A stretch of 64,000 bases of DNA, taken from positions 496,001 through 560,000 of the forward strand of contig NZ_KE386934.1 in the NCBI RefSeq assembly GCF_000429645.1, written 5' to 3'. Positions 23,386-27,267 of the stretch are shown here, in pieces. Origin of the DNA: Niveispirillum irakense DSM 11586. Its GTDB lineage: Bacteria > Pseudomonadota > Alphaproteobacteria > Azospirillales > Azospirillaceae. Position 1 is the first letter of the stretch; each line of letters opens with the position of its first letter. The translations under genes and the position numbers were made by a program. A model generated the notes under the pieces. That model worked only from the letters and a program-made list of their open reading frames with translations. It was not told the origin of the DNA and did not search any database.

Positions 23386-24570
23386 ATGGCAATGCTGGTC
23401 CGCTGCACCCCCGCTTTGCGCAAAGGCCTGACGGCCGCGCTCCTCTCCCTGTCGCTGGTCTGGCCGGCCGCAGGACAGGGGGCGGATGACCTGTTCACCG
23501 TGCGCGACGTGACCGTCGATGTCACGGCCGCGTCCGCCCTTGCCGCCCGCGATCAGGGCATGCGCGAGGGCCAGCGCAAGGCTTTCGACGCCCTGTTCGA
23601 CCGGCTGACCCCGGAAGGGACCCGCGCCCGCCTGCCCTCCCTGGACAGCACCGCCGTGGACGCCATGGTGCAGAGCTTCCAGGTGCAGGAGGAGCGGGCG
23701 TCCGACGTGCGCTATCTCGGCCGGCTGGCGGTGAGCTTCAACGCCGCCGCCGTGCGCCGTTTCATGCGCAGCTACAATATTCCTTATACAGAAGTGCGAT
23801 CGCGGCCCGTGCTGGTCATCCCCGTGGACCAGACCGGCGGCGCCCCTGTGCTGTGGCAGGCGGAAACCGCCTGGCGTCAGGCCTGGGCTGACCTGCCGCT
23901 GCAAAGCGGTCTGGTTCCCATCGCCATTCCCTATGGCGAGGCACAGGACGTGGCCGATATCGGCGTTGAGCAGGCGGTGGCCGGGGAAGCCGACCCGCTG
24001 GCCCGAATCGCCAGCCGCTATGAGGCCGGCGATGTCGCTGTCGCCATCCTGGCCCCGGCCGGCAGCGGGGTCACCGTAACCGTTACCCTTTATCCGGCGA
24101 CAGGCAGCGCGCCGGAGAGCTTTACCATCAATCAGGAGCAGATCACCACGAGCACCGACGCAGCCAGCGGCTCAACAGGCGCCCATGGCGGTCCAACAGG
24201 CGCCCATGGCGGCCCGACCCTGAAGGCGGCTGTGGAAAAAATCGTCCATCAACTGGAAGAGCGATGGACCGCTGCCAACATGGTGGTTCCCGGTCAGGAA
24301 AGCGATCTGACCCTCTCCATCCCCTTCACCTCACAGCGGGACTGGCTGGATACGCGCAAACGCCTTTCCGCGATTCCCACCGTCAGCCAGGTGCGCCTGT
24401 TGAGCCTGGGCCGTGACCGGGCAGAGGTTGAACTGCGCTATGTCGGCGATATGGAGCGGCTGCGCAGCGCCCTGGCGCAGCAGGACCTGTCCCTGATACA
24501 GGCCAGCGAGAAAACGGAACTGCGCCGGCGGGGTGCGGTTTCCACACCCAGCACGCCCCCCACCCCTTGA
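23386..24570 (+). CDS. DUF2066 domain-containing secreted protein
   Basis: This 394-residue protein has a signal peptide (hydrophobic residues about 13-30, cleavage after a small-residue AAG region) and a DUF2066 domain with FTVRDVTVDVTAASALAARDQGM near residue 37 and YNIPYTEVRSRPVLVIPV near residue 129. The function is unknown; orthologues sit next to purM and hdaA in alphaproteobacteria. A Gly/His-rich linker near residue 265 has two copies of GAHGGPT encoded by a 21-base tandem repeat. Confidence 0.8.
   Translation: MAMLVRCTPALRKGLTAALLSLSLVWPAAGQGADDLFTVRDVTVDVTAASALAARDQGMREGQRKAFDALFDRLTPEGTRARLPSLDSTAVDAMVQSFQVQEERASDVRYLGRLAVSFNAAAVRRFMRSYNIPYTEVRSRPVLVIPVDQTGGAPVLWQAETAWRQAWADLPLQSGLVPIAIPYGEAQDVADIGVEQAVAGEADPLARIASRYEAGDVAVAILAPAGSGVTVTVTLYPATGSAPESFTINQEQITTSTDAASGSTGAHGGPTGAHGGPTLKAAVEKIVHQLEERWTAANMVVPGQESDLTLSIPFTSQRDWLDTRKRLSAIPTVSQVRLLSLGRDRAEVELRYVGDMERLRSALAQQDLSLIQASEKTELRRRGAVSTPSTPPTP
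24175..24216 (+). repeat. Two-copy 21-base tandem repeat inside the DUF2066 gene
   Basis: Two nearly identical 21-base units (ACAGGCGCCCATGGCGGYCC core) encode tandem GAHGGPT segments in the linker of the DUF2066 protein. The repeat keeps frame, so copy-number change would only alter linker length. Confidence 0.75.
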
Positions 24571-24595
24571 AAGGCCAACAGGGCCTCATCCTGAT

Positions 24596-24707
24596 TTATC
24601 CCCGTTTATCCAGAATTCTCCCCCGGTGGATAACGGGGAACATGGGCATGCACAGATAGCCCCCCTGTCTGTCCGGGCGGAATCGGCCTACAGTTTGTTT
24701 ATCCACT
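24596..24707. promoter_or_regulatory. Cluster of four DnaA-box-like sites upstream of the operon with hdaA
   Basis: Four 9-mers resembling the DnaA box TTATCCACA lie in 112 bases: TTATCCCCG at 24596-24604 (+), TTATCCAGA at 24606-24614 (+), TTATCCACC at 24625-24633 (minus strand) and TTATCCACT at 24699-24707 (+). Three differ from consensus at one base and one at two. They occupy the 209-base gap before the CDP-alcohol transferase gene, the first gene of the unit ending in the HdaA-like gene. Confidence 0.6.
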
Positions 24708-24779
24708 ACCCCAAAAGCGCTCCGCCACCCGGCGGCGATCGCCCAGGGCCATGGATAGCTGAATGGACCGATCCGCCCG

Positions 24780-25385
24780 ATGACGACCGAGAAACCAAAC
24801 CGGATGCTGCATGTGCCCAACCTGATCACGGGTGGGCGCATCCTGGCTGTGCCCGTGACGGTGTTGCTGATCCTGACGGATCACCTTCACGCCGCTTTCT
24901 GGCTTTTCGCGCTGGCTGCCTTGTCAGACGCGGCCGATGGTCTGGTAGCCCGCCTGTTCCGGGCGCGCACCAAACTGGGCGGGTGGCTGGACCCGGCCGC
25001 CGATAAGCTGCTGCTGGTCGGCACCTATGTCGCCATGGCGATAACCAACCTGATACCGGTCTGGCTGCTGATCCTGGTCTTGCTCCGGGACCTCATCATC
25101 ATTGTCGGTATCGCGGTACTGATCCTGGCTCTGCGGGAGAAATTGTCGATCCAGCCCTTGTGGATCGGCAAGCTGAATACTTTTCTGCAGCTTTCCCTGG
25201 TGGGGCTTGTCCTCGGGGCCGCCGGGCCGTTCCGGGATTATGCGGATTATGTGATGCCGGGCACGTTGGTGGTGGCCGTGTCCACCGTCGGATCCATGGT
25301 GGCTTACATCATGCGCGGGGTGTTCATCCTGCGGACGCGCCTGGGCGCGCAGGATGAACAGCAGGATGGGGAGAAGGCCGAATGA
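24780..25385 (+). CDS. CDP-alcohol phosphatidyltransferase family protein
   Basis: This 201-residue integral membrane enzyme is of the PgsA type. The catalytic signature D-x2-DG-x2-AR-x8-G-x3-D-x3-D is complete, from DAADGLVARLF near residue 48 to GGWLDPAADK near residue 66. The family joins CDP-diacylglycerol to an alcohol such as glycerol-3-phosphate in phospholipid synthesis; the acceptor here is not certain, and a genuine pgsA may exist elsewhere. Its stop overlaps the next start (ATGA), so it heads a tightly coupled three-gene unit. Confidence 0.85.
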   Translation: MTTEKPNRMLHVPNLITGGRILAVPVTVLLILTDHLHAAFWLFALAALSDAADGLVARLFRARTKLGGWLDPAADKLLLVGTYVAMAITNLIPVWLLILVLLRDLIIIVGIAVLILALREKLSIQPLWIGKLNTFLQLSLVGLVLGAAGPFRDYADYVMPGTLVVAVSTVGSMVAYIMRGVFILRTRLGAQDEQQDGEKAE

Positions 25386-26548
25386 ATGCGGCGCGGCAAT
25401 GGCGTTTCTGGCTCTGGACCCTGATCGTCTTTATCGGTCTGGTCTGGCTGCTGCGGTCCGTCCTGGGGCCTTTTGTTGCTGGTATGGCAATCGCCTATCT
25501 GCTGGACCCGCTGGTTGACCGGCTGGAACGGCGGGGTGTGGCCCGCTGGGCCGGCACCACCATCGTGTTGCTGGGATTCGCCCTGGCGCTGATCCTGTCA
25601 CTTCTGCTGCTGGTGCCATTGCTCCAAGGTCAGGCCATGCAACTGGTCCAGACAATTCCCTCCTGGGTCAGTTGGGCGCGGGAAGAGGCACTGCCTTATG
25701 TGCAGCATCTGATGGAACAATTGCCGCAGGAGGATATGGACAAGCTGCGCGGTGCTGTGGGCGATTATGCTGGCACTGCCGTCTCCTGGACCGCCGACCT
25801 GCTGAAGGGTGTGGTCACCCAGGGTGTCGCACTGGTCGATATCATCTCAGTGGTATTGATCACCCCCATCGTCGCCTTTTATCTGCTGCGTGACTGGGAC
25901 CAGTTGATCGCCAATATGGATAGCTGGCTGCCCCGCCAGCATATCGGCACCATCCGGGAACAGGCCAAGGCAGTGGACAATACCCTGTCAGGCTTCGTTC
26001 GGGGTCAGGCGACGGTCTGCTTGGTGCTGGGAGCGTTCTACGCCGTCGCTCTGACAGCAGCCGGGCTAAAATTCGGCCTGATCATCGGCATGGTCGCGGG
26101 GCTTCTTTCCTTTATCCCCTTCGTCGGCTCTCTGGTGGGATTCCTGGCCAGTGTCGGCGTGGCTCTGTTCCAGTTTGACGAGATGTGGCGGGTTGCCATC
26201 GTGGCCGGCATCTTCTTCTTCGGTCAGGCCGTGGAAGGCAATGTGCTGACTCCCAAGTTGGTAGGCGACAAGGTGGGACTGCACCCGGTCTGGGTCATCT
26301 TCGCCCTGATGGCCGGCGGTGCCCTGTTCGGCTTCGTCGGTATCCTGCTGGCCGTGCCGATGGCGGCCGTAATCGGCGTCCTCGTCCGTTTTGTCCTGGG
26401 CCAGTACATGGACAGCACCATCTATCGTGGCCCGGCACCGGCGGCGCCCACCCCCTGTCCGGAAATCGCCATAGATCCCCTGCCCGCCGATCCGGCAGCG
26501 GAAGGCACGGATCGACGTATCCTCAGCGATTATAGGCCGGCGCCATGA
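25382..26548 (+). CDS. AI-2E family transporter (PerM-like)
   Basis: This 388-residue membrane protein has an N-terminal pair of helices, a central amphipathic domain and a C-terminal bundle with GLLSFIPFVGSLVG near residue 240, the conserved motif of the AI-2E/PerM family. Members export diverse small molecules or ions; the substrate here is unknown. The tail after residue 345 is Pro/Ala-rich and disordered. It overlaps both neighbours by four bases. Confidence 0.88.
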   Translation: MNAARQWRFWLWTLIVFIGLVWLLRSVLGPFVAGMAIAYLLDPLVDRLERRGVARWAGTTIVLLGFALALILSLLLLVPLLQGQAMQLVQTIPSWVSWAREEALPYVQHLMEQLPQEDMDKLRGAVGDYAGTAVSWTADLLKGVVTQGVALVDIISVVLITPIVAFYLLRDWDQLIANMDSWLPRQHIGTIREQAKAVDNTLSGFVRGQATVCLVLGAFYAVALTAAGLKFGLIIGMVAGLLSFIPFVGSLVGFLASVGVALFQFDEMWRVAIVAGIFFFGQAVEGNVLTPKLVGDKVGLHPVWVIFALMAGGALFGFVGILLAVPMAAVIGVLVRFVLGQYMDSTIYRGPAPAAPTPCPEIAIDPLPADPAAEGTDRRILSDYRPAP

Positions 26549-27267
26549 TGGGTTGCACACTCATGACCACCCCTCCCCCCCGGCAAACCCGCCAGATACC
26601 GCTCGACCTGGGGCATCGCTCCGCGATGGGGGAAGCTGATTTCCTGGTCGCGCCCGGCAATCAGGATGCCGTGGCATGGCTGGATGCGTGGCCGGAATGG
26701 CCGGCACCGGTGCTGGTCCTGTTCGGGCCGCAAGGGTCGGGCAAAAGCCATCTGGCCCAGATCTGGCGCGCCCGGGCGCGGGCCAATCTGCTGGATGTGG
26801 ATGATCTGCGCGCAGAAGATTTGCCGGACCTGCTGCACCCGACCCGCACCGCTGTGCTGGATGGTGCGCAGCGTGTGGCGGGTGACCCGGTTCTGGAGCG
26901 GGCGCTGTTCCATCTCTATAATCTGGCGAAGGAAAGCGGCGGTCACCTGCTGCTGCTGGCCGATAATGCGCCTGTGAACTGGGTGCTGCGGCTACCCGAC
27001 CTTCGCTCCCGTCTCCTGGCGGCGCCTGCCGTCGGCATGGCGGCACCAGACGATTCGCTTTTGATGGCGGTGCTGGTCAAGCTGTTCGCCGACCGGCAGG
27101 TACGGGTCGGTGAGGATGTGATTGAGTGGCTGCTGACCCGCACCGAACGCAGCTTCGCCAATGCCCGCCGCGTGGTCGACCGGCTGGATCGCGAGGCGCT
27201 GGCGGAAAAAAAGCCGATCACCGTGCGATTCTGCCGGCAGGTTCTGGGAGATCGGGGAGATATGTGA
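26545..27267 (+). CDS. hdaA: DnaA-related regulatory ATPase, HdaA-like
   Basis: This 240-residue protein is related to DnaA domain III. It starts with QIPLDLGHRSAMGEADFLV, a short clamp-binding-like N-terminus (QIPLDL), and has a P-loop GPQGSGKSHL near residue 59, a degenerate Walker B and a C-terminal sensor region RSRLLAAPAVGM. HdaA of Caulobacter, with the sliding clamp, stimulates ATP hydrolysis by DnaA to prevent re-initiation. The ATG at 26545 overlaps the previous stop (ATGA); a second ATG at 26563 is possible. A usual neighbour, ppk, is absent here. Confidence 0.82.
   Translation: MMGCTLMTTPPPRQTRQIPLDLGHRSAMGEADFLVAPGNQDAVAWLDAWPEWPAPVLVLFGPQGSGKSHLAQIWRARARANLLDVDDLRAEDLPDLLHPTRTAVLDGAQRVAGDPVLERALFHLYNLAKESGGHLLLLADNAPVNWVLRLPDLRSRLLAAPAVGMAAPDDSLLMAVLVKLFADRQVRVGEDVIEWLLTRTERSFANARRVVDRLDREALAEKKPITVRFCRQVLGDRGDM

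Follow-up and report, generated by a model that had tools for sequence, protein, structure and literature searches.

The 64,000-nucleotide stretch of the Niveispirillum irakense DSM 11586 genome analysed here (the window) contains a 209-bp gap (24571-24779, plus strand) that precedes a three-gene unit, pgsA-perM-hdaA, and holds four sites resembling binding boxes for DnaA. The clustering of these sites is non-random and lies far beyond chance. The favoured reading, to which about even probability is given, is that the gap forms the promoter region of pgsA-perM-hdaA and is at the same time a low-affinity DnaA target, with the HdaA-like product of the last gene feeding back on DnaA. A preliminary description of this DNA had proposed a DnaA-controlled feedback promoter. 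That proposal is supported in part: the cluster is non-random, lies in a likely promoter gap, is partly conserved and has a precedent in Caulobacter, where direct activation of the hdaA promoter by DnaA is established (PMC3193534). On the other side, the sites have no CACA end and the full cluster is missing from other Niveispirillum genomes, from 27 loci of the family and from 60 of the class.

Four clustered DnaA-type sites

Each of the four nine-mers contains TTATCC, and sites 1-3 fit inside 38 bp. Site 1 (TTATCCCCG, 24596-24604, plus strand) carries two mismatches to TTATCCACA, has a W-box-like TCCCCG end and scores weakly against the oriC matrix described below. Site 2 (TTATCCAGA, 24606-24614, plus strand) follows one base later in the same direction with a single mismatch to TTATCCACA, and is faced by site 3 (TTATCCACC, 24625-24633, minus strand), also with one mismatch. 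Site 4 (TTATCCACT, 24699-24707, plus strand) again differs from TTATCCACA at one position. Rechecking the coordinates reproduced what had been noted at the outset, namely three nine-mers with one mismatch, one with two, and three of the four within 38 bases. TCCCCG adjoins TTATCCA across sites 1 and 2 on the plus strand; TCCCCG also precedes site 3, here on the minus strand, so that a composite unit TCCCCG(T)TTATCCA occurs as an inverted pair at 24599-24639, to which no strand is assigned (arms 24601-24612/24627-24638 and 24599-24606/24632-24639). In the Caulobacter origin the related word TCCCCA serves as the weak W-box (PMC4285127).

Dinucleotide shuffling of the gap (20,000 shuffles) gave a mean of 0.17 TTATCC words, with at least three in 14 shuffles and four in none. 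Counted singly, sites with no more than one mismatch were not enriched across the window (7 observed against 6.4 expected), so only their clustering is unusual. Within a 1.07 Mb sample of the same genome, made up of the whole of contig C3 and half of C2, the gap was the sole place with at least three TTATCC words in 112 bp, and the measured density gave a Poisson expectation of 0.004 four-site clusters for a sample of this size. The genome-wide comparison, for which the preliminary description had called, consisted of exact-pattern searches together with 1.47 Mb of sequence: pair-pattern searches of the whole genome (5.45 Mb) returned one further triple within 38 bp, at C5:322997-323030. The C5 triple has tandem TTATCC words at 14-bp spacing and could represent iterons of another replicon. 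Separately, a 33-bp sequence containing TTATCC is identical at C4:389550-389582 and C10:79222-79254, which suggests a repeated element.

The probable chromosomal oriC lies just upstream of hemE (C2:737005-737215), where the guanine-cytosine (GC) skew flips sign, and its boxes in this genome are TTTTCCACA (twice), TTGTCCACA and TTATCCACA. Aligned boxes of these three types, with their spacing kept, were present upstream of hemE in 11 of 11 Niveispirillum genomes, together with a conserved TTATCC site and a site similar to TTNTCCCCA. Among the strong boxes variation falls on position 3, or in rare cases on 1 or 5, and CACA is always kept; sites 1-4 appear instead to resemble the accessory, W-box-like sites of oriC. 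A matrix was built from the oriC sites of the relatives in two versions, with strong boxes only or with accessory sites included. The cluster scored 9.4 or 13.8, respectively, versus about 36.6 for oriC, and ranked third or second in the 1.47 Mb, far below oriC. No such boxes were found in the 800 bp upstream of the genome's own dnaA. An 18-mer with a perfect DnaA box, AGACTTATCCACAGATTC, occurs at C3:418838 (L079:18838) and C3:424060 (L080:4060), 5.2 kb apart. Both copies are apparently intergenic, the latter sitting between a histidine kinase-like and a glutathione-transferase-like open reading frame, and may be DnaA-regulated or structural sites.

The downstream unit and conservation of the gap

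Conservation in the gap was found in a block, GTGGATAAYGGGGAAYAYGGGCATG (24626-24650, plus strand), that is identical at 22 of 25 positions between this genome and a sister genome, G071, a match that beats all 500 shuffles (maximum 21). The TTATCCAC core of site 3 is kept in both G071 and a second sister, G075, and conservation runs past site 3 to GGGGAAYAYGGGCATG. Among 82 genomes of the family the exact block occurred only in this genome and the two sisters, at the same place. With three mismatches, three matches were obtained elsewhere, in G073 and G074, and no second copy was found in the 1.07 Mb of the own genome. The gap of the sisters, whose PgsA is 65% identical to that of the window, contains TTATCCCCA, TTTTCCCCA, TTATCCACG and TATTCCCCA, the last two abutting, and its total of TTATCC and TCCCCA words was reached by 0.06% of shuffles. 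The comparison with relatives that had been recommended earlier gave a divided result, in that the block at site 3 is kept in one sister lineage and the full cluster is not.

The gap follows a DUF2066 gene (23386-24570, plus strand; PF09839, 3e-25) and leads into three genes of the same strand joined in succession by 4-bp overlaps. The first (24780-25385) encodes a pgsA-like CDP-alcohol phosphatidyltransferase (PF01066, 3.5e-28, with the pgsA model itself below its cut-off), and the second (25382-26548) a membrane protein of the AI-2E/PerM family (PF01594, 4.8e-62). The last (26545-27267) encodes the HdaA-like ATPase with which the unit had been said to end, an assignment that holds: HdaA models are its best NCBIfam matches (2.1e-65; 220.7 and 152.6 bits, short of their strict curated thresholds, 297 and 300), and the Hda lid domain of Pfam scores above its cut-off. 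Inspection of the translation by eye located QIPLDL as a clamp-binding motif, GPQGSGKS as a Walker A motif and LRSRL as an arginine finger. Judged by model, lid domain and motifs together, the protein is an HdaA/Hda relative. By HdaA, the two closest named loci found belong to a Niveispirillum metagenome-assembled genome and strain AAP38 (87-88% identity). At five loci of other Niveispirillum genomes (L051, L052, L053, L055 and L056) the gene in the place of pgsA is only 34-37% identical to the window PgsA and the flanking genes are 52-88% identical; pgsA there may have been replaced or be diverging fast.

In both sisters a strong terminator-like hairpin with a T run separates DUF2066 from the conserved block (about 2425-2464 in locus L054 and about 2378-2417 in L057; fold z -5.4 and -6.2). 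Given this position of the sister terminator, the gap most likely carries the promoter of pgsA-perM-hdaA. The hairpin between DUF2066 and pgsA is not present in the window. An RNA leader was considered and rejected, as an Rfam search returned no match and the hairpin of the block is no more stable than in shuffled sequences (z -0.2 to -0.6). The CtrA motif TTAA-N7-TTAA was not found. A single GANTC (CcrM/GcrA) occurs at 24680, is not shared by the sisters and was given no weight.

Weighing the explanations

Several observations weigh against a DnaA target in the gap. Sites 1-4 reverse the pattern of oriC, with TTATCC kept and the ACA end lost, and because they lack the CACA with which strong oriC boxes end they constitute a cluster of weak sites, of low-affinity types at best. 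No sigma-70 consensus for the operon strand was recognised in the gap. G071 and G075, which are near-identical and were counted as one comparison, do not keep sites 1, 2 and 4 at the corresponding positions, and the W-box interpretation came after sight of the sister sequences and is to be weighed accordingly. The full cluster is missing in the other Niveispirillum genomes; five of these have a different conserved motif, CATTGTTATCCWTYCGAAAACCCTCATACTG, before pgsA and a single TTATCC. In G066 and G067 the junction is tight and contains no box. Within the 400 bp upstream of pgsA at 27 further family loci, two weak words were found at one locus and none elsewhere. Likewise, no cluster precedes the operon in 60 class-wide genomes, picked mostly one per family, in which hdaA usually follows DUF2066, perM and often pgsA. 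From these comparisons the operon appears to be old and the box cluster young.

The strongest rival is that the block is the operator of another regulator, built on a palindrome TTCCCC...GGGGAA centred on GTGGATAA, with the remaining TTATCC words occurring incidentally in a promoter gap of the ordinary kind. This would account for conservation that reaches beyond site 3, for the failure of sites 1, 2 and 4 to be conserved and for the co-variation of the palindrome arms, which read CCCCG/CGGGG in this genome and CCCCA/TGGGG in the sisters. However, the arms themselves fit W-box-like DnaA sites, chance would not be expected to place four TTATCC words in the gap, and the block is repeated neither in the 1.07 Mb nor in the family, unlike a regulon. 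An operator of this kind is possible, if somewhat unlikely. The alternative that TTATCC clustered by chance, without any DnaA function and with the only functional part of the gap unrelated, draws on the missing features of strong boxes and on the second triple at C5:322997-323030, but conflicts with the shuffles (0 of 20,000), with the uniqueness of the cluster in 1.07 Mb and with a sister gap that is independently rich in DnaA-type words. It is considered unlikely, and retains some probability given the lack of conservation at sites 1, 2 and 4.

Two further explanations place the function of the cluster in replication control itself. A chromosomal element that titrates DnaA, or reactivates it in the manner of a DnaA-reactivating sequence (DARS), would act on DnaA rather than on transcription, and the orientation of the boxes recalls DARS; but the sites are weak, they are conserved in one sister lineage only, and their position before hdaA would be a coincidence. 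No IHF-like site, an accessory site of the DARS2 type, was found in the gap. DARS1 needs few accessory sites, so that the missing IHF-like site is not decisive. Overall, such an element is judged very improbable. A cryptic replication origin, which the preliminary description had already ranked as less likely, has the DnaA-box-like cluster in its favour and nothing else. It was rejected, with a probability close to nil, since there is no turn in GC skew at the locus (skew is negative over the entire surrounding 678-kb contig), the gap has a GC content of 60%, and the probable oriC by hemE has consensus boxes and a skew change and is conserved in 11 Niveispirillum genomes.

Proposed feedback and comparison with known systems

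If the gap is both the promoter of pgsA-perM-hdaA and a DnaA target of low affinity, assembly of DnaA would take place on the two facing units, each with a W-box-like TCCCCG adjoining TTATCCA, and on site 4 downstream. At high levels of active DnaA the weak sites would fill, HdaA would be made and DnaA would be inactivated. Synthesis of HdaA, along with that of PgsA and PerM, would in this way be tied to the level of active DnaA, with negative feedback through the HdaA-driven regulatory inactivation of DnaA (RIDA). Binding of DnaA to the gap is a prediction from its sequence, and activation rather than repression is presumed by analogy with Caulobacter; the position of the promoter, the transcription start and the feedback itself are similarly putative. 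The DnaA-to-hdaA loop is already known from published work on Caulobacter, and the arrangement described here is probably a new, lineage-restricted instance of it. A more specific proposal is rather doubtful: that a low-affinity switch, made of facing units in which a W-box-like word adjoins a DnaA box, evolved recently in one Niveispirillum sub-lineage, responds to high active DnaA only and co-induces HdaA with the PgsA-like enzyme (a relative of phosphatidylglycerol-phosphate synthase), thereby linking the initiation of replication with the synthesis of acidic phospholipids.

Were the favoured reading true, the DnaA-HdaA feedback of Caulobacter would operate in Azospirillaceae as well, through weak, lineage-specific sites, and a gene of phospholipid synthesis would share its DnaA input with hdaA. 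It would also mean that the wiring of replication control turns over fast upstream of an operon that the class as a whole retains.

Three systems offer a comparison. The core of the E. coli DARS (PMC8682772) likewise has three clustered boxes with opposing neighbours, a likeness of number and orientation; here, in contrast, the sites are weaker, an IHF-like site is missing and the location is a promoter gap. With the W-box and accessory sites of alphaproteobacterial origins (PMC4285127) the cluster shares TCCCC(A/G) adjoining a nine-mer box of the same direction. It differs from origin W-boxes in lying at a non-origin locus, in having no strong TCCACA-ended box adjacent and, in the own genome, in a final G rather than A.

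The closest parallel is the hdaA promoter of Caulobacter crescentus (Collier and Shapiro 2009, cited in PMC3193534). Up to six DnaA boxes lie in this promoter, DnaA activates it directly, and the HdaA produced goes on to inactivate DnaA (PMC3193534; PMC8203912). In the window, by contrast, the sites lie ahead of pgsA, with hdaA two genes further on, and they are weak, confined to one Niveispirillum sub-lineage and only predicted to bind DnaA. Despite these differences, both cases have several DnaA-type sites before the unit containing hdaA, and in both DnaA is proposed to control its own inactivator.
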